This document shows, piece by piece, positions 1,111-27,084 of a stretch of DNA of 64,000 nucleotides. Position 1 is the stretch's first letter; each line of letters opens with the position of its first letter. Origin of the DNA: Helicobacter sp. 16-1353 (GTDB lineage Bacteria > Campylobacterota > Campylobacteria > Campylobacterales > Helicobacteraceae); NCBI RefSeq assembly GCF_003288815.1, contig NZ_NHYM01000001.1, forward strand, positions 124,001 to 188,000, written 5' to 3'. The notes under the pieces were generated by a model. It made no database searches and had not been told where the DNA came from. It worked only from the letters and a program-made list of their open reading frames with translations. The position numbers were made by a program, and so were the translations under genes.

Positions 1111-1125
1111 GCAAGGGGGTAGAAT
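1111..1125 (+). promoter_or_regulatory. Promoter module copy A, short poly-G (G5) before TAGAAT
   Basis: The element reads GCAAGGGGG (G5 at 1115-1119) followed at once by TAGAAT (1120-1125), which resembles an epsilonproteobacterial -10 box, and then TGATTTTTTAA. The downstream leader AAGCGACGCGATAA is shared with copies at 1561 and 26940. It lies about 70 bp before the start codon at 1196. Copies B, C and D have nine G at the same place, so this copy has a contracted tract. Its role as a promoter is inferred from position and repetition. Confidence 0.55.
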
Positions 1126-1195
1126 TGATTTTTTAAAACAAGTTTTAAGCGACGCGATAAATTTTAAGAGAATGGGAAATGAAAGGGGTGCAAAA

Positions 1196-1474
1196 ATGTC
1201 TGCAAAATTATTAAAAGCCATATTTATACTTATTATAGGTGCTGTGGGGACAATGCTACTTTGGGGAATCTACTTGGGTGTGATAAAACTAGGTCCATCG
1301 GCTGTAGCCACATCAGGCTCATCGGCTGGATTAGGTGCAATTATGCTTACCATAATGATATTAGGTTTGGCTTATGGAGTGTTTATCGCAATAAGAGCGA
1401 CATTCAGAGGAGTAAAGAATACATTCAAGGAAAAGCCCGACGATGAAGTGCAAACCGCCTCGCAAAATGGGTAA
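1196..1474 (+). CDS. Small membrane protein with one or two helices and a Ser/Ala linker
   Basis: I do not recognise the family. The 92-residue product starts MSAKLLKAIFIL; an in-frame ATG at 1172 exists, but the one at 1196 has the ribosome site (AAAGGGG) and matches the start of the paralogue at 26520-26840. Two hydrophobic segments (about residues 5-30 and 45-65) flank a PSAVATSGSSAG linker; the tail is charged (KEKPDDE). The pair 'this protein then DUF805 protein' occurs twice in the window in opposite orientation, so the two probably work together or move together. Upstream is promoter module A. Function unknown. Confidence 0.6.
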   Translation: MSAKLLKAIFILIIGAVGTMLLWGIYLGVIKLGPSAVATSGSSAGLGAIMLTIMILGLAYGVFIAIRATFRGVKNTFKEKPDDEVQTASQNG

Positions 1475-1560
1475 GAAATCTAATATTTAGATAAGAATCT
1501 TAAGAATCCGCCAAGATTCTAAACTTCCACATTTTTAAGAATAGATTCAGCAAAATATAA

Positions 1561-1579
1561 GCAAGGGGGGGGGTAGAAT
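1561..1579 (+). promoter_or_regulatory. Promoter module copy B with G9 tract
   Basis: Nine G (1565-1573) directly precede TAGAAT (1574-1579) and a leader nearly identical to copy A, including AAGCGACGCGATAA and an AAAGGAG ribosome site just before the ATG at 1650. A length change in G9 would move any upstream contact relative to the -10 box, the usual way homopolymers make promoters phase-variable. The assignment is inferred; the repeat itself is directly visible. Confidence 0.6.
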
Positions 1580-1649
1580 TGATTTTTTTAAGCAAGTTTT
1601 AAGCGACGCGATAAGTTCTAAAAGAATGAGAAAATAAAAGGAGAAAAAA

Positions 1650-2207
1650 ATGTTTCTTATTATCGCAATATTTTATGGACTAAATGTGCTATCTACGGAA
1701 GGATTTGCGACTTTTAAGAGTGAAATGGGTAAATCTTGGAGTGAGTTTTGGGGGCAGGGGTTTGACTTTACGGGTAGAACGACAAGGAGAGAGTTTTTAC
1801 TAGCTTGTCTTTCAGTGCTGGTAAGGCTTCTTGTGATTGGCTGTGGTGTGATTATTCTACTCGCACTTATGGCTAATGGTGATGGCGGTGGCTTTTTGGG
1901 AGCAATTGGTGGCATTTTAGGAATAATTGGTAGTATGTTATTCATTGCTCTTATTGTGCCTACTCTTGCTATATTTGTCCGCAGATATAGAGATGTTGGG
2001 GTTAGCATTTGGGTATTTATTTTAATTATTATCTTAAGTGCATTCACATCTGCTCTCTTAAGTGCATTCACAAGTAGCGGGGTTATTAAATTGGTTGTTG
2101 GCTTAATTGGAGAGATTATTAATTTGGTTATTTGCTTATCACCTAGTAAAAAAGTGGAAAATGATTTGCAAAATATTCCGCAAAATGTCTTACAAAATGG
2201 TGAGTAA
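1650..2207 (+). CDS. DUF805 family inner-membrane protein
   Basis: A 185-residue protein with a short N-terminal segment, then the family pattern FWGQGFDFTGRTTRREF (around residues 34-50), the conserved arginine-rich region before the first DUF805 helix, and three to four hydrophobic helices. VRRYRDVGVS (around 111-120) is the other conserved DUF805 motif (R-R-x-x-D). Family members (for example E. coli YhaH/YhaI) are inner-membrane proteins of unknown function. A frameshifted paralogue lies at 26061-26508. The gene has its own G9 promoter module and an AAAGGAG ribosome site. Confidence 0.8.
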   Translation: MFLIIAIFYGLNVLSTEGFATFKSEMGKSWSEFWGQGFDFTGRTTRREFLLACLSVLVRLLVIGCGVIILLALMANGDGGGFLGAIGGILGIIGSMLFIALIVPTLAIFVRRYRDVGVSIWVFILIIILSAFTSALLSAFTSSGVIKLVVGLIGEIINLVICLSPSKKVENDLQNIPQNVLQNGE

Positions 2208-2277
2208 ATAGTATTTAGCCAAGAATCTTAAGAATCCACTGGGATTCTAAAAATCAAAAATATGAAAAAGGAGAAAT

Positions 2278-3036
2278 ATGAAAAAGATAATTTTAGGGCT
2301 TTTAGTGGGCGGTTTTAGCCACATAATGGCAAATGAAATGATAATAGCAGAATCGGATATTTACACTATTCGTCCAGCAAATAATACAAATCGCTCCGTT
2401 ATTGAGCCAAGTAGCAAGATAAAGCCAAGTCGCCAATCTAGGGGCATTAAAGCACTTCAAGTAAATAAAGATGAAAAATCTGGCATTTTTATCGGCTTTG
2501 AAATGGGAATGGACGAAATGCAAATGCGAGATTCCCTACTATCTGTTATCAGATACAAATTTACCGGCGGGGCAGTCGGCGGAAAGGTCGGCTATAAGTT
2601 TTTCTTGCAACCAAATGTTGGAATTCGTGCCTATGGTAGCCTAAACTACTCTATGCACGAAACTGAAGCAGGGGGAGGAGGCATTAATATAACTGCTTTG
2701 GTTTTTGCGGCAAATGCTGATGTTTTATATAATTTTTATAATGGCGAATACGGCATATTTGGGGCATTTGCTGGGCTTGGACTTGGCGGGAGTAGCTGGG
2801 ATATAAAATTTAGGGGCTATGTAAATAGCTACGACACTATGGAAACAACCACTTTTAAACCTAGCGGACTTTATATGGACGCAAAAATAGGGCTTAGGGC
2901 AAATATCTCACATCACGGAGTAGAATTCATCGTAAAAGTCCCATTTATCGAGGCAAAGGAGAGCTTTGGCGGACTTGCTGGTATACTGACTAAGCAAAAT
3001 TATCAAATTTCACTTGGCTATAACTTCACATTTTAG
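2278..3036 (+). CDS. Outer-membrane beta-barrel protein (Helicobacter OMP type)
   Basis: 252 residues with an N-terminal signal peptide (MKKIILGLLVGGFSHIMA), a linker to about residue 60, then an eight-strand-like barrel with alternating aromatic/Gly residues (GYKFFL, GAFAGLGLGGSSW) and a C-terminal GYNFTF ending in Phe, the usual Bam recognition end. It aligns along its length with the product of 5264-5881 (shared FGAFxGLGxGG, SGLYxDAKxGLR, TKQNYQ). It is exported to the outer membrane; ligand or adhesion role unknown. It may be co-transcribed with the DUF805 gene (70 bp upstream) and the Sel1 gene (20 bp downstream). Confidence 0.8.
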   Translation: MKKIILGLLVGGFSHIMANEMIIAESDIYTIRPANNTNRSVIEPSSKIKPSRQSRGIKALQVNKDEKSGIFIGFEMGMDEMQMRDSLLSVIRYKFTGGAVGGKVGYKFFLQPNVGIRAYGSLNYSMHETEAGGGGINITALVFAANADVLYNFYNGEYGIFGAFAGLGLGGSSWDIKFRGYVNSYDTMETTTFKPSGLYMDAKIGLRANISHHGVEFIVKVPFIEAKESFGGLAGILTKQNYQISLGYNFTF

Positions 3037-3055
3037 GGAATCTTAAAGGGGAAAA

Positions 3056-3307
3056 ATGAAAAAGATAATTTTAGGGCTTTTAGTTGCTTTGTCCGCTTTA
3101 GCGTGGGGAGATGATTCTAAAGTTACAGAATTTTATAAAAAAGCCTGTGATAAGCAACATGGCAAAAGTTGCTTTTATCTTGGAGCAATGTATTATAAGG
3201 GAAAAGGCGTAAGGCAAGATTATTCTAAAGCAAAAGAATATTTTGGAAAAGCCTGTGATTTAGGTTCTCAAGATGGTTGCGATGAATATAGAGACTTAAA
3301 TAACTAA
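3056..3307 (+). CDS. Small secreted Sel1-repeat protein
   Basis: 83 residues: signal peptide MKKIILGLLVALSALAWG, then one complete Sel1-like repeat (ACDKQHGKSCFYLGAMYYKGKGVRQDYSKAK), and the start of another (ACDLGSQDGC) with paired cysteines, as in the Helicobacter cysteine-rich proteins (Hcp family), where each repeat is closed by a disulfide. It is far shorter than HcpA-type proteins (usually five or more repeats), so it is a minimal member or a remnant. The first 29 nucleotides are identical to those of the preceding outer-membrane gene. Confidence 0.75.
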   Translation: MKKIILGLLVALSALAWGDDSKVTEFYKKACDKQHGKSCFYLGAMYYKGKGVRQDYSKAKEYFGKACDLGSQDGCDEYRDLNN

Positions 3308-3354
3308 CATCTTAAGACACGACAAAACACACAAGTAAGGAAATAGCATTTTAA

Positions 3355-3448
3355 GGGGCGTATGCCACCTGTGGGAGTTCTAGGCGTTAATGGTGTTGCG
3401 AATACACTAGCTCCCTTGCATTTTAATAACTCCTTTTTATGTGGCATA
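3355..3448 (+). ncRNA. Candidate structured RNA
   Basis: TATGCCAC (3361-3368) pairs perfectly with GTGGCATA (3441-3448), closing an 80-base domain. Inside, GGGAG plus CTAG (3373-3383) pair with CTAGCTCCC (3407-3415), and a small TGT/ACA hairpin lies within. GGAGTT (3374-3379) can instead pair with AACTCC (3428-3433), so two folds compete. An intrinsic terminator follows directly. The nearest coding sequence ends at 3307 and the region is not coding. I do not recognise it as tmRNA, SRP RNA, 6S RNA or a known riboswitch. It could be an sRNA. Confidence 0.5.
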
Positions 3449-3452
3449 TCGA

Positions 3453-3489
3453 GGCTGGGGCATTAGAATTTCCCAGCCGGCTTTTTAAT
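3453..3489 (+). terminator. Intrinsic terminator of the structured RNA
   Basis: GGCTGGG (3453-3459) and CCCAGCC (3472-3478) form a 7-bp GC-rich stem, extended by a G-U pair, followed by GGCTTTTTAAT. It ends the RNA described at 3355-3448. Confidence 0.65.
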
Positions 3490-4018
3490 AAGCCCCATTT
3501 AAGGCGTGATATTTTTAGATATTTTCGCTTTTAATGTGCTATTTATGGAATCCTAAACAGCCCCAAGAATCTTAAAGCCCAAGATTCCATAAACTCGCTA
3601 AGATTCTCGCCACAGATTCCACAAACTCCACCAGATTCCATACAGATTTCATTTTAGATTCTCGCACAGATTCCACGAATCTCAGCGGATTCTTTAAAGC
3701 CCCGCTAGATTCCCGCGAATCTACCATTAAAGATTTTATAGAATCTAATCTTTTAAAATCCGCCAAGATTCTAAATATATAAGAATCTAAAAAGGAAAAA
3801 TATATAAAAGCTAGTTTTGATAATGAAAAAATGAGATTTTAAAGTATTTATAAAGGCGAATCTTAAAGCCAAAAGATTTGGAAATTCCGCTATGATGGCA
3901 AAGTCTATCTAATCACAAATTGATTTCTACTCTCAACTAAGCACATAATCGAACGCCATTTATCTAATACTAGAATCTATTTTAATGATTTCACCACGAT
4001 TGCTAAAAAATGTAGAAT
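3490..4018. repeat. Intergenic region with a second GATTC/GAATC array
   Basis: About 530 bp without a supportable gene. From 3545 to 3790 the words GATTC/GAATC occur again and again, as in 841-1060. The reverse ORF at 3572-3766 is made of these words and is rejected. The segment 3800-4018 is AT-rich and unstructured to my eye. Confidence 0.55.
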
Positions 4019-4537
4019 TTACAAATATTGTTTGATGATTTGCCATTTTATGCCTAAAGATTCTATACTATATCTTGCATTTGCACTGCTCGATGATGGC
4101 AATCCAAAAGAATCTAATTTAATATTGTTGCAATATTTTTTATAAATCTCTGTGGCTTTTTTGCCATTTGTAAAAATCACCCTAATCCTAGAATCTTCGC
4201 ATAATCTTTCAATCTCATTGATTTTTATAGGGTTTAATGTGGCGTCGCTTGATTTGTCTATATTGCAAATCTTTACAATATCCCAAATAGCGATATTATG
4301 TCGTAATAAAAAATCTATTTGTGATTGAAAAACTTCGCTATATTTTTCTTTAGGTGTTTTTTTGGATAGTTTGGGAATGTTTTCATTAAAAATTATGCCT
4401 AGAATATCCCAGAATCTATTTTGTGGATTAGCATAGTAAAAATTAGATTCTCGGGATTTTATCGATGGAAATGAACCTAAAATCAAAACCTTAGAATCTT
4501 TATTAAAAATCGCCTGAAATGGGTGTGAAAAAGTCAT
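4019..4537 (-). CDS. Hypoxanthine/deoxyinosine DNA glycosylase, UDG superfamily family 6
   Basis: 172 residues. The N-terminus carries LILGSFPSIKSRESNFYYANPQNRFW (described here by key residues: GSFPS, SR, FYY, NPQNRFW), the signature of the hypoxanthine-DNA-glycosylase branch of the uracil-DNA-glycosylase superfamily. The C-terminal LPSSSSANAR is the second active-site loop. Family knowledge: it removes deaminated adenine (hypoxanthine) from DNA in base excision repair. The gene is divergent from the TfoX-like gene and shares a short upstream region with it. Confidence 0.8.
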   Translation of the reverse strand: MTFSHPFQAIFNKDSKVLILGSFPSIKSRESNFYYANPQNRFWDILGIIFNENIPKLSKKTPKEKYSEVFQSQIDFLLRHNIAIWDIVKICNIDKSSDATLNPIKINEIERLCEDSRIRVIFTNGKKATEIYKKYCNNIKLDSFGLPSSSSANARYSIESLGIKWQIIKQYL

Positions 4538-4593
4538 TCAAATCTCCTAGATTTTTGATATACTTGATGATTATAACACGAAATGGAGAAAAT

Positions 4594-4926
4594 ATGAGTG
4601 ATGCGGGATTTGTGGAGTTTGTGTGCGATGTGTTAAATGAATGTGGGGAGATTGAAGCTAGAAATATGGGTGATGATTATTTTATTTATATTGATGGGAA
4701 GAATTGCTTTACGATGTGCGATAATAAAGTTTTTGTGAAAAAATATGAGGAATTAGAGCCCCTTTTAGGGGAGAATCCAAGCGGGATTCCATTTAATGGG
4801 GAAAATGAATGCTGGATTTTAGATATTAATAATAAGGCTTTGAGTGTGGAAGTTGGGCTGATTTTAAAAGAAATTATTCCAACTATTAGAACACCAAAAC
4901 AAAGAAAAAGATTAAGAAAACGATAA
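4594..4926 (+). CDS. TfoX N-terminal-domain protein
   Basis: 110 residues from the ATG at 4594, which has AAATGGAGAAAAT as ribosome site; the longer in-frame ATG at 4519 would overlap the divergent glycosylase gene and lacks one. The pattern FVEFVCDVL-x-GEIEARNMGDDYFIYIDGK...VFVKKYEE matches the TfoX/Sxy N-terminal fold. There is no C-terminal helix-hairpin-helix domain, so it is a stand-alone TfoX_N protein of unknown role. A link to competence would be only by analogy to TfoX. The Lys/Arg-rich end (PKQRKRLRKR) may bind nucleic acid. Confidence 0.65.
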   Translation: MSDAGFVEFVCDVLNECGEIEARNMGDDYFIYIDGKNCFTMCDNKVFVKKYEELEPLLGENPSGIPFNGENECWILDINNKALSVEVGLILKEIIPTIRTPKQRKRLRKR

Positions 4927-4927
4927 A

Positions 4928-5205
4928 TCTTTAAGCTTTTACTTTTAGATTCTATTTAGATTCTAGATTTTCTTAAGATTTTATAGAAATTTAGAAGTTG
5001 CATTGATGTAAGATTTACCCCATAATTGAGAATTTTTTAAAAGCTTAAAATTTAAAGCGAAATAAAAAGATTTAAGTATTTTTTAAAAATCTTTAGCTTT
5101 TACTTTAAGATTCTATTTAGATTCTAGATTTTCTTAAGATTTTGTGGAAATTTAAAAGTTACATTGATGTAATTTATTTCCACCCCCCCCCAATATTTGA
5201 GTGGA
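4928..5205. repeat. Imperfect direct repeat of about 110 bp, one copy with a C9 tract
   Basis: 4928-5036 and 5091-5205 are two copies of the same sequence (TTTAGATTCTATTTAGATTC core, then TCTTAAGATTTT, then the palindrome-like TTACAT-TG-ATGTAA). In the first copy the palindrome is followed by TTACCCCATAATTGAG; in the second by CCACCCCCCCCC (C9 at 5183-5191) then AATATTTGAG. The C9 lies downstream of the outer-membrane gene that ends at 5264 on the other strand. No gene is seen in 4927-5263. This may be a regulatory duplication. Confidence 0.6.
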
Positions 5206-5263
5206 AGCAGAAATGCATTAATATAAAGAAGTTTCCAAATCTGTTTTTAAAGGAGTGCAGATT

Positions 5264-5881
5264 TTAGAATGTGTAATTATATCCTACAACTACTTGATAG
5301 TTTTGTTTAGTTGTTACTTTATATGAACCACCGCTACCATCATCGAAGTTTTTCTTTACGCCTACAAATGGTATTTTCGCTACTAGCTCAATGCCGTGAT
5401 GTTTAGCGATATTTGTTCGTAAGCCCACTTTTGCGTCTGCATAAAGTCCGCTATTTGTATCTTTTAAACCGCCTTCTTTAGTTTCCCATGTAGTTCCACC
5501 TACGCCAAGTCCCACAAATGCACCAAATGAAACAGACTCATTGTTATAGAAGTTAAACAATGCATCGGCATTTACAGCATAAACCATATTATTTACAGTA
5601 GCATTATTAAAATCTGCAGCACTTATTTTACCTGTTAGATAGCTAAAATTCGCATATCCACGCACACCAAACCAAGAATTTACAAAGTATTTATAACCCG
5701 CATTTACACCAAATGCAACGCCACCATCTGTCTTTTTTAGTGAGTTTTCACCTTGTTCGACTTTAAACTCATATCCAGCATATCCTGCTTCAAGACCGAT
5801 AAATGCTCCAGATTCTTCATCTGCGTTCGCCACGCTTAATCCGCCTACTAAAAGCCCTAAAACTAATAAAAGTTTTTTCAT
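5264..5881 (-). CDS. Outer-membrane beta-barrel protein with phase-variable promoter
   Basis: 205 residues: signal peptide MKKLLLVLGLLVGGLSVANA, then a small barrel with repeated GY/GF aromatic-girdle strands and a terminal GYNYTF. It is a paralogue of the protein at 2278-3036 without that protein's 40-residue linker. The start has an AGGAG ribosome site. Thirty-six bases upstream is TAGAAT preceded by nine G, the same module as before the DUF805 genes. Location: outer membrane. Ligand unknown. Confidence 0.8.
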   Translation of the reverse strand: MKKLLLVLGLLVGGLSVANADEESGAFIGLEAGYAGYEFKVEQGENSLKKTDGGVAFGVNAGYKYFVNSWFGVRGYANFSYLTGKISAADFNNATVNNMVYAVNADALFNFYNNESVSFGAFVGLGVGGTTWETKEGGLKDTNSGLYADAKVGLRTNIAKHHGIELVAKIPFVGVKKNFDDGSGGSYKVTTKQNYQVVVGYNYTF

Positions 5882-5916
5882 TTTTTCTCCTAGTTAAAAA
5901 TTTTATGAGAAAATCA

Positions 5917-5931
5917 ATTCTACCCCCCCCC
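5917..5931 (-). promoter_or_regulatory. Promoter module copy D with G9 tract
   Basis: On the reverse strand: TAAGTTA, nine G (5931-5923), TAGAAT (5922-5917), TGATTTTCTC, then a short leader to the ATG at 5881. Only the G9-TAGAATTGATTTT core is shared with copies A to C; the longer leader is not. That indicates the core itself is what is conserved. Confidence 0.6.
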
Positions 5932-6043
5932 TAACTTACATTTTGCTTAAATGTGAAGTAAATGTGAATTTTTTAAGTGTGATTTTAAATATAAAACTAA
6001 AATAAAATTTGAAAATCTTTAAGCTTTTTATTTAAAAAAATAT

Positions 6044-19461: not shown

Positions 19462-21117
19462 ATGAAAATATTTATAATTCGATTTCTGCCTTATATAAAA
19501 GGTCATTATCCTAGATTTATCATAGCTATTGGTGCTGGCATTATAACTGCATTATGCACCGCTTTAATTACATACCTTGTAAAACCTGTTCTTGATGATG
19601 TTTTCATCAATAAAGATTCCACAATGTTAATAATTTTACCCATCGTTTTAATCTTTGCATATATGGGTAAAAGTGTAGGAATGTATGCACAATCATATTT
19701 GATGAATTATATTGGACAGGACATTGTAAGGCAGATTCGCAATAAGCTTTTAGCCCATATGCTAAGCTTAGAGATGGAATTTTTTAATAAAATGCGTAGC
19801 GGTGAGCTTGTAGCAAGAATTACAAATGATATTGAATCTATAAGGAATGCCGTTTCAAACTATGTAGGGGATTTCGCAAGAGAGAGCATTACTATTATAG
19901 CGTTAATTGGGGTTGTTATTTACCAAAGTCCAAAATTAGCTATTTTTGGGCTTATTGTAATACCTCTTGCTATGTTTCCTATTAATATAATCGCTAAAAA
20001 GATTAAGAAAATCTCTAAAAAACTAATGGAGCAAAATTCTGATATAACTGCCAAATTAAACGAAATATTTAATAACGCCGAGCTAATAAAAGCAAGTAAT
20101 AGCCAAGAGATTGAGAGCAAATATTTCAATGATGCAAATTATAATTTTTTTAAGATTAATATGAAAGTGGTTCAGCAAAATCAGCTTGTAAATCCGCTTA
20201 TGGAGCTTTTGGGGGCGATTGTTGTTGCTATTGTGATTTATATCGGTGGTAATGAAGTAATAGATGGAAAAATGACTGCTGGGGCATTTTTTTCATTTGT
20301 TGCGGCATTATTTATGATTTACACACCATTAAAAAAAATAACTTCAATGTATGCTGGAATGCAAACAGCACTTGCCGCAGGACATAGAATCTTTGAAATA
20401 CTCGATAGAGCCCCACAAATAAAAGATGGAAATATAGTTTTAAAAAACAATATAGAATCTATTTCATTCGATAATGTTAGTTTAAATTATGACAATGTGG
20501 TGGCTCTAAAAAATATTAATTTAACATTTAATAAAAATGAAATAGTCGCATTAAAAGGTAAAAGTGGTAGTGGAAAAAGCTCTATTGTGAATCTTATTTT
20601 GCGATTATATACACCAAATAAAGGTCAAGTTAAGATAAATGGCATATCGCTTGATAATTACACACAAAAAAGTATTTGCGATAATATCGCCATTGTAACA
20701 CAGAGAATCTTTATTTTTAACGATAGTATCGCTGTAAATGTCGCATATGGAAGTGAAATAGATGAAAAGAAAATAATAGAATCCTTAAAACAAAGTTTTG
20801 CTTGGGATTTTGTGGAGAATCTTCCAGATGGAATCTACACAAAACTAGATGAATATGGAGCAAATCTAAGCGGTGGTCAAAGACAGAGAATAGCGATTGC
20901 TAGGGCAATATATAAGAATCCGCAAATATTAATTTTTGATGAAGCTACAAGTGCATTAGATGAAGCTACGGAAGATTCCATTAAAAAAAGTATTAATTTA
21001 ATCAAAAAAGATAAAATCGTTATTCTAATCGCACATCGCCCAAGCACCATAGAGCTTGCTACAAAAAAGATTGAAATAAGTGATGGCGAAATCAAAAATA
21101 TAGAGATAAAGCAATGA
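19462..21117 (+). CDS. msbA: Lipid A/lipid ABC exporter MsbA-type
   Basis: 551 residues: six-helix transmembrane domain to about 300 (GQDIVRQIRNKLLAHMLSLEMEFF, typical intracellular loop), then an ATPase domain with Walker A KGKSGSGKSS, signature LSGGQRQR, Walker B ILIFDEATSALDE and the switch His in IAHRPST. It flips lipid A core across the inner membrane. The start has no ribosome site. The stop overlaps the following fucosyltransferase start (ATGA), so both are co-transcribed and coupled. Confidence 0.88.
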   Translation: MKIFIIRFLPYIKGHYPRFIIAIGAGIITALCTALITYLVKPVLDDVFINKDSTMLIILPIVLIFAYMGKSVGMYAQSYLMNYIGQDIVRQIRNKLLAHMLSLEMEFFNKMRSGELVARITNDIESIRNAVSNYVGDFARESITIIALIGVVIYQSPKLAIFGLIVIPLAMFPINIIAKKIKKISKKLMEQNSDITAKLNEIFNNAELIKASNSQEIESKYFNDANYNFFKINMKVVQQNQLVNPLMELLGAIVVAIVIYIGGNEVIDGKMTAGAFFSFVAALFMIYTPLKKITSMYAGMQTALAAGHRIFEILDRAPQIKDGNIVLKNNIESISFDNVSLNYDNVVALKNINLTFNKNEIVALKGKSGSGKSSIVNLILRLYTPNKGQVKINGISLDNYTQKSICDNIAIVTQRIFIFNDSIAVNVAYGSEIDEKKIIESLKQSFAWDFVENLPDGIYTKLDEYGANLSGGQRQRIAIARAIYKNPQILIFDEATSALDEATEDSIKKSINLIKKDKIVILIAHRPSTIELATKKIEISDGEIKNIEIKQ

Positions 21118-22076
21118 AACCAATCAAAAAAATTGCATTTTTAGATGGCTATGCAGGATTGGAATCTACAATAGAGCAAATATTAAGCAAAAAATATGAG
21201 ATTATCATAGATTCCAAGAATCCAGATTATATATTTTATAGTGTATTTGGGGCAAAACATATTCATTATGATTGTATTAGGATTTTTATAACTGGAGAAA
21301 ATTGTCGCTGTGATTTTAATTTTGCTGATTATGGAATCGCTTTTGATTATCTAATATTTGAAGATAGATATTTGCGGTATCCGCTATATCTTACTTATGA
21401 AAGCTTTGATAAATGCCTAAATAATACAACAACGATTGCCAATCCATTTAACCGCTCATTTTGTAGCTTTGTAGTTAGCAATGATAAAGCAGATAGCAAA
21501 AGAGAGGAAATTTTTAATAAACTAAGCAAATATAAAAGAGTAGATTCTGGCGGAAAATATAAGAATAATATTGGCGAAGCAGTGGCTGATAAGTTAGAAT
21601 TTTTATCAAAATATAAATTCAATATCGCATTTGAAAATTCCCAAACCAATGGCTATATAACCGAAAAAATTTTTGATGCAAAGGCAGCAGGAAGTATCCC
21701 TATATATTTTGGTGATATAAAAATAGCATATCCTTTAAACGAAAATGGGGGGGGGTTAAATAAAAAAGCATTTATCAATCTAGCAGATTTTACTTGTATA
21801 GATGAAATGATAGAGTTTATAAAAGCTATTGATTGTGATGAAAAACGATATTTAGAAATACTAAATGAGCCTTTAATCTTAGATTCTAATCATAAAGAGA
21901 TATTTAATAAAAGATTGGAGAATTTTTTATATAATATATTTGATTCTCCCCTACAAGAAGCATATAGAAGGGGATTTGGGCAGTGGAGAATGAATATTGA
22001 AAATAGATATAAGAAATTCCAAAAAGCAAGAGAGAAAATCATAAAAATCCAAAATATCATAAGGTTTTACAAATAA
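21114..22076 (+). CDS. Alpha-1,3-fucosyltransferase (GT10) with internal G9 phase switch
   Basis: 320 residues. FCSFVVSN, then VDSGGKYKNNIG and YKFNIAFENSQTNGYITEKIFDA are GT10 donor-binding motifs, as in Helicobacter FutA/FutB, followed by a basic amphipathic C-terminus for membrane binding (KKFQKAREKIIK). It transfers fucose from GDP-fucose to LPS glycans, making Lewis-type antigens. G9 at 21747-21755 encodes Gly-Gly-Gly; loss of one G gives an immediate TAA, gain of one a stop two codons later. In this sequence it is in frame (on). It overlaps msbA by 4 bp. Confidence 0.88.
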   Translation: MKPIKKIAFLDGYAGLESTIEQILSKKYEIIIDSKNPDYIFYSVFGAKHIHYDCIRIFITGENCRCDFNFADYGIAFDYLIFEDRYLRYPLYLTYESFDKCLNNTTTIANPFNRSFCSFVVSNDKADSKREEIFNKLSKYKRVDSGGKYKNNIGEAVADKLEFLSKYKFNIAFENSQTNGYITEKIFDAKAAGSIPIYFGDIKIAYPLNENGGGLNKKAFINLADFTCIDEMIEFIKAIDCDEKRYLEILNEPLILDSNHKEIFNKRLENFLYNIFDSPLQEAYRRGFGQWRMNIENRYKKFQKAREKIIKIQNIIRFYK

Positions 22077-26060: not shown

Positions 26061-26508
26061 TTATTCTCCATTTTGTGAAATATTTTGCAAATCATTTTCC
26101 ACTTTTTTACTAGGCAATAAGCAAATAACAAAATTAATAACCACGCCGATTGGAGCTAAGAGAATGGCTAAAATAAATATCCAAATGCTAACTCCAGCAT
26201 CTTCTATATCTGCGGACATACATAGCAAAAGCAGGCACGATAAAGGCTATAAATAATACAATTAGCAAAATACCACCAATTATATCGCTAATAGCAAGCA
26301 CGAACATGGCAATAAGTCCAATCACAAGGAGACCTATCGGCACTGAAAACCAAGTTAGCAAAAACTCTCTCCTTGTCGTCCTGCCCGTAAAGTCAAATCC
26401 CCGCCTCCAAAACTCTCTCCAAGATTTACCCATTTCACTCTTAAAAGTCGCAAATCCTTCTGTAAACAGCACATTTAGTCCGTAAACTATTGCAATAATA
26501 AAAAACAT
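26061..26508 (-). pseudogene. DUF805 protein gene, frameshifted
   Basis: Starts MFFIIAIVYGLNVLFTEGFATFKSEMG, closely matching the intact gene at 1650-2207. After YVRRYR the frame breaks: the intact copy reads AGATATAGAGATG, this copy AGATATAGAAGATG, one extra A, giving RCWS-stop at 26188. In the next frame the rest of the protein continues (DAGVSIWIFILAILLAP, then ...NDLQNISQNGE) to TAA at 26061-26063. Either a recent inactivation or a sequencing error. The central part is shorter than in the intact copy. Confidence 0.8.
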
Positions 26509-26519
26509 GTTTTTCTCCT

Positions 26520-26840
26520 TTAATTTTCCTTATATTCTGTAGCGTTTGATGGGGCGTTTTGCGCCTCATCGTCGGGCTTTTCTTTGATTGTATTCTTTAC
26601 TCCTCTAAATGTTGCTCTTATTGTGATAAATACTCCATAAGCCAAACCTAATGTCATTATGGTAAGCATAATTGCACCTTCTCCAGCTGATGAGCCTGAT
26701 GTGGCTACAGCCGATGAGCCTGATGTGGCTACAGCCGATGAGCCTGATTGCGTTACAAGCGCGTAGATTCCCCCAAGCAACGCTATTCCTACAAAACCTA
26801 TGACAAGTATAAATATAGCTTTTAATAATTTCGCAAACAT
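26520..26840 (-). CDS. Small membrane protein, paralogue of 1196-1474, with tandem SSAVATSG repeat
   Basis: 106 residues. Same start (MFAKLLKAIFIL), two hydrophobic segments and KEKPDDE tail as the paralogue at 1196-1474. The linker holds GSSAVATS twice followed by GSSAG; the paralogue has it once, so a 24-bp unit (GGCTCATCGGCTGTAGCCAC and four more bases) has changed copy number. Eleven bases separate it from the DUF805 pseudogene; the leader is promoter module C. Function unknown. Confidence 0.6.
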   Translation of the reverse strand: MFAKLLKAIFILVIGFVGIALLGGIYALVTQSGSSAVATSGSSAVATSGSSAGEGAIMLTIMTLGLAYGVFITIRATFRGVKNTIKEKPDDEAQNAPSNATEYKEN

Positions 26841-26925
26841 TTTTGCACTCCTTTCATTTCCTATTCTCTTAGAATTTATCGCGTCGCTATTTATCGCGTC
26901 GCTTAAAACTCGCTTAAAAAAATCG

Positions 26926-26940
26926 ATTTTACCCCCCCCC
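26926..26940 (-). promoter_or_regulatory. Promoter module copy C with G9 tract
   Basis: Reverse strand: ATAAGCAA, nine G (26940-26932), TAAAAT (26931-26926), CGATTTTTTTAAGC, then the leader with AGCGACGCGATAAAT twice (a small duplication) and an AAAGGAG site before the ATG at 26840. Upstream sequence (ATTCAGCAAAGTATAAGCAA) also matches copy B, so homology extends across the whole promoter. Confidence 0.6.
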
Positions 26941-27084
26941 TTGCTTATACTTTGCTGAATCTATTCTTAAAAATGTGGGAATTTGTGAATTTTTGCAGTT
27001 TTTGAGAATCTAAAGTGTGGAATCTGGGGGAATCTAAAGTAAGAATCTAAGCGGAATCCAAAGCAATAATATTTAAATGATGCG

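Follow-up and report, generated by a model that had tools for sequence, protein, structure and literature searches.

A family of candidate phase-variable promoters in Helicobacter in which a poly-G spacer separates a putative HsrA/CosR-type operator from the -10 hexamer

The Bordetella fim genes are activated by BvgA. The length of a C-stretch tunes transcription of these surface-protein genes, and a difference of one base is accompanied by an about 4-fold difference for fimX (PMC1891110). In Neisseria porA and Treponema pallidum tp0126 (OmpW), a poly-G tract lies between the -35 and -10 elements of an outer-membrane-protein promoter, and the resulting spacing sets transcription (PMC7864442). 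Homopolymer length also tunes surface genes in Helicobacter pylori. There, the tlpB G-repeat lies in the mRNA leader and is the target of the sRNA RepG (PMC8295292), and the T-tract of the sabA promoter adjoins the -35 and is not merely a spacer (PMC4081817). The part of the Helicobacter canadensis report considered here gives four promoter-located tracts of G13–G16 with length mixtures in the sequencing reads, and describes neither promoter anatomy, a common box nor the placement of the -10 (PMC2823697).

We analyzed a window of 64 kb from the 1.9 Mb genome of Helicobacter sp. 16-1353. An initial annotation had pointed to four sites (copies A–D) at which a G5–G9 tract runs directly into TA(A/G)AAT, and all four were found where it had placed them. 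Four matches to GGGGGTARAAT compare with 0.05 expected in the window, and none of 100 dinucleotide shuffles reached this number. Tract length differs among the copies, as had been proposed, with G5 at A and G9 at the other three. On the transcribed strand, each copy reads in the order box, short gap, G tract, TA(G/A)AAT, leader, open reading frame (ORF). The promoter elements and the genes that follow them are:

1095–1111, + strand: operator-like box of copy A, TATAAT-CAAAT-ATTAAG; score 8.0/10, with a first half-site that has lost its G and reads TATAAT
1115–1119, + strand: G5 tract of copy A, probably too short for hypervariability
1120–1125, + strand: -10-like hexamer of copy A, TAGAAT
1196–1474, + strand: small membrane protein of 92 aa under A, a paralogue of the C-unit protein
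1545–1561, + strand: box of copy B, ATTCAG-CAAAA-TATAAG; score 7.5/10
1565–1573, + strand: G9 tract (spacer) of copy B
1574–1579, + strand: -10 hexamer of copy B, TAGAAT
1650–2207, + strand: DUF805 membrane protein (Pfam PF05656), gene 1 of a putative B operon
2278–3036, + strand: HP_OMP outer-membrane barrel (Pfam PF01856), gene 2 of the putative B operon
3056–3307, + strand: Sel1-repeat protein (Pfam PF08238), gene 3 of the putative B operon
5264–5881, - strand: HP_OMP outer-membrane barrel under copy D (Pfam PF01856, 4.1e-23)
5917–5922, - strand: -10 hexamer of copy D, TAGAAT
5923–5931, - strand: G9 tract (spacer) of copy D
5935–5951, - strand: HP1043-type box of copy D, TTTAAG-CAAAA-TGTAAG; score 9.0/10, 12 bp from the -10
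26188–26508, - strand: DUF805 gene of the C unit, frameshifted and truncated
26520–26840, - strand: small membrane protein of the C unit, 106 aa
26926–26931, - strand: -10 hexamer of copy C, TAAAAT
26932–26940, - strand: G9 tract (spacer) of copy C
26944–26960, - strand: box of copy C, ATTCAG-CAAAG-TATAAG; score 7.5/10

The targets are those originally suggested, namely outer-membrane barrels, a DUF805 operon and small membrane proteins, together with lipoproteins. Homologues of the barrel under D occur in 98 of the 121 family genomes; a protein search of the genome contigs with the OMP found no confirmed relative. The small membrane proteins of A and C are 72% identical. A leader, GCGACGCGATAA, is common to A, B and C, as had been noted, and these are its only three places in the whole genome; in the C unit it stands twice in tandem (26876–26902, - strand). 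Given the identity of the two proteins and the frameshifted DUF805 copy, the sharing of this leader is best ascribed to duplication of promoter-leader-gene units. The TGATTTT reported after the hexamer is present at A, B and D, and is replaced by CGATTTT at C. Both the AAGCGACGCGATAA leader and TGATTTT were rejected as parts of the module; they are absent from most other sites, and the leader is confined to the A–C paralogues. For the GCGATAA within the leader we also considered a sigma-28 reading.

The tracts of all four copies lie outside coding sequence, unlike a G9 tract at 21747–21755 (+ strand). The latter is inside an alpha-1,3-fucosyltransferase gene (FucT_N, Glyco_transf_10; ORF 21114–22076), a classic translational contingency gene that is separate from the promoter family. 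A further G9 tract (5183–5191, - strand) lies about 75 bp beyond the barrel gene of D and is followed by TGGAAAT; it has no box, -10 or ORF.

The box upstream of the G tract matches the operator of HP1043/HsrA, an essential OmpR-type activator known as CosR in Campylobacter. This operator, ttTAAG-5bp-tTTAAg, is found immediately upstream of a sigma-80 -10, where HP1043 acts as a transcription activator, as seen in vitro (PMC5253667, PMC8345958). The match is closest at D. The boxes of B and C are weaker, as their ATTCAG first half-site is changed at a base reported to be important for HP1043; copy A is missing its first half-site. In B, C and D the tract is held in fixed register between box and -10, as it is across the family. 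With a half-site lost and only G5, copy A has probably decayed or become locked and is probably not phase-variable. The genome encodes an orthologue of the regulator, a protein of 222 aa with E values of 2.8e-98 to PDB 8uvx and 3.9e-89 to 2hqr; the latter is the entry to which PMC8345958 refers for HP1043.

Genome-wide, there are 10 GGGGGTARAAT sites, 8 of which have at least seven Gs; reversal of the G7+TARAAT pattern gave no match in the genome, against these 8 real sites. The genome also holds 348 overlapping G8 windows, and many of its G8+ tracts are coding, so the promoter pattern must be told apart from coding contingency tracts. When the tracts of the fetched loci were split by coding status, the promoter arrangement proved to be mainly a feature of non-coding tracts that lie a short way upstream of an ORF. 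Not every match to G7+TARAAT is a promoter: in one genus (g2, L011–L033) the sites mostly lack both the box and a downstream ORF. G7+TATAAT, considered as an equally strong class, proved weaker; among the sites read in this genome, one (L297) has promoter context and one other is coding.

Several individual sites deserve mention. Two of the ten genomic sites (C9:29771–29825 and C11:1–55) are nearly identical poly-G promoters that run off contig ends, which suggests that a repeated downstream gene was collapsed in the assembly. Two other HP_OMP genes (L293, C22:16129–16159; L280, C26:41463 region) carry G9–G10 in apparent signal-peptide codons, so the barrel family uses promoter and coding tracts within one genome. 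A thiolase of the acetyl-CoA acetyltransferase type is under a poly-G promoter in two genera (L001, C4:31103; L167 and L190 in genus g12) and is a metabolic, not a surface, target. By eye, four TTTAAG-like half-sites recur every ~10–11 bp upstream of the L001 tract, an array that recalls the H. pylori rpoD promoter with its multiple HP1043 sites.

To characterize the upstream element we used 34 non-redundant, non-coding loci with tract, -10 and ORF, none of which had been selected for any -35 or box. The repeated TTTAAG emerged from alignment of sites unselected for an upstream motif. A box scoring at least 8/10 against the HP1043 consensus is present in 19 of these 34 promoter loci; the corresponding figures are 0.85% for shuffled sequences and 2 of 47 for tracts in coding sequence. 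In 16 of 26 loci, the half-sites are spaced by exactly 11 bp; 10 bp was seen at two loci, 12 bp at one and other spacings at none. The unit conserved through the genome and its relatives is a TTTAAG-N5-TTTAAG box, then the G tract and then the -10 hexamer, 26–110 nt before an ORF. In a broader comparison, the box was found in 24 of 42 tract promoters and in 10 of 228 ordinary non-tract promoters of the same loci (P = 1.7e-15); this comparison takes in some sites that a TTAAG search had retrieved, and copy A (G5) is classed in it as non-tract, for which reasons the 34-locus test is the cleaner of the two. TTAAGC alone was tried as the upstream signal and refined, since the second half-site at 11 bp discriminates better; on sites selected for TTAAG, a first test had reached only P = 0.07. 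The box is not universal, because some OMP promoters of genus g5 have a single TTTAAG and no second half-site. Those at L182, L183, L185, L306, L308 and L309 share a palindrome-like GCTTTTAAGCAAAA before G10–G19, with one TTTAAG where the two-half-site box would stand, and are possibly served by a different regulator.

The converse search used TTAAG-N6-TTAA-N0-4-G7, did not require a -10 and was controlled with the reversed pattern. Across the order, 32 of 399 genomes have box plus G7 and none matches the reversed control; within the family, the composite was found in 33 of 121 Helicobacteraceae genomes, representing 12 of 13 genera, with two control matches. Among 47 distinct sites read, 46 were non-coding. 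A -10 (at least 5/6 of TATAAT) stands exactly at the tract end in 27 of the 47, against about one at each other offset. Box and -10 are most often 9–10 or 13 bp apart. On the H. pylori hp1227 promoter, the published HP1043 box spans -42 to -26, which by our inference would put a -10 at -12 some 13 bp away. In several genera, orthologous OMP genes retain the tract. The suggestion that these sites form a phase-variable promoter family draws support both from sequence statistics in the genome and from comparison across the family.

Tract length was compared between loci, with one genome per species. Orthologous and duplicated loci whose flanks are identical or almost so carry tracts of different length (G15 in L183 and G18 in L188; G14 in L191 and G9 in L193; G10 in L308 and G14 in L309), and in one case (G11 in L174 and G10 in L175) the difference lies inside one genome. 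Copies A (G5) and B (G9) of the window are a further such pair. The candidate phase-variable promoters of this genome have 8–9 Gs, and tracts in relatives reach 19.

We consider it probable that these are phase-variable promoters in which the G tract is a variable spacer between an HsrA/CosR-type operator (or a -35) and the -10. They would be of the housekeeping-sigma (sigma-80) type, with a sub-consensus -10 hexamer (TAGAAT/TAAAAT/TATAAT) that predicts a start site just downstream, and the -35, weak in campylobacteria, would be overlapped by the first half of the box. Slipped-strand lengthening or shortening of the tract would shift and rotate the bound activator (or the -35) relative to the -10. 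The altered geometry between activator and polymerase may then set the downstream surface-protein operon high, low or off.

Since TTTAAG is also described as the -35 of C. jejuni, an activator would not be strictly required. TTTAAG could be the campylobacterial -35 and the 11-bp repeat a generic periodic A/T signal of RpoD promoters, so that tract length would alter only the -35/-10 spacing, as in porA. The C. jejuni consensus is TTTAAGTnTT, placed 19 bp from the -10 in cj0183, and thymines recur every 10–11 bp in its promoters (PMC3824568, PMC3656092); the g5 promoters, with just one TTTAAG, also fit such an arrangement. We regard this main rival as less probable, because the two-half-site box is rare in the non-tract promoters of the same loci, and because its second half is a specific sequence held at 11 bp, more than a generic A/T period should produce.

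The initial annotation had offered a different alternative, in which the G run would be part of the leader and a C-rich sRNA would bind to it. Control by G-repeat length through a C/U-rich sRNA is established in H. pylori for RepG and the tlpB leader (PMC8295292), and a TATAAT located 14 bp before the G5 of copy A could put that tract in a leader. A tract directly upstream of the -10 would not be transcribed, however, and the 27 of 47 sites with a -10 at the tract end and an ORF 26–110 nt later place the tract upstream of the predicted start; by eye, B, C and D have no good -10 upstream of the tract. This makes the sRNA explanation improbable. Less probable still is a neutral origin of the tracts, by slippage or as assembly noise, with no regulatory role. 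The AT-rich genome does have many G8+ tracts, many of them coding, but across numerous genera box, tract and -10 stay in one order and one register, and the tract has been kept before orthologous OMP genes of several genera.

Among working systems, the Bordetella fim C-stretch and the porA and tp0126 poly-G spacers come closest. The fim system has an unrelated activator and sequence and involves few promoters in one genus, compared with dozens in many genera here; its expression effects are demonstrated, whereas the Helicobacter family is known from sequence. porA and tp0126 have canonical -35 and -10 elements with a 17-bp optimum and no common operator described, in place of the TTTAAG-N5-TTTAAG found upstream here. 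The promoters of the HP1043/HsrA regulon in H. pylori and the CosR regulon in C. jejuni are alike in having the operator of a transcription activator just upstream of a sigma-80 -10 (PMC5253667, PMC8345958). They differ in that the H. pylori targets of HP1043 are mostly housekeeping genes, and neither phase variation nor homopolymers are mentioned in PMC5253667. The class of mechanism is known from Bordetella, Neisseria and Treponema, and a family with a shared operator in the Campylobacterales appears to be unreported in the open-licence literature searched.

It is possible, and we propose it tentatively, that phase-variable promoters with a common layout are dispersed through the Campylobacterales, each combining the operator of an essential global activator (HsrA/CosR) with a poly-G spacer prone to frequent mutation and a sub-consensus -10. 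A master activator would then drive randomly switched surface genes, the share of each being set by helical spacing. Transcriptionally phase-variable genes are hard to recognize, and the reports considered here give only possible promoter tracts; if the proposal is correct, the rule TTAAG-N6-TTAA-N0-4-G7+-TANAAT would find such genes in Helicobacter and Campylobacter. It would also provide a simple spacing model that is open to direct test in vitro, and would connect stochastic variation of the cell surface with an orphan response regulator that is essential and already a drug target.
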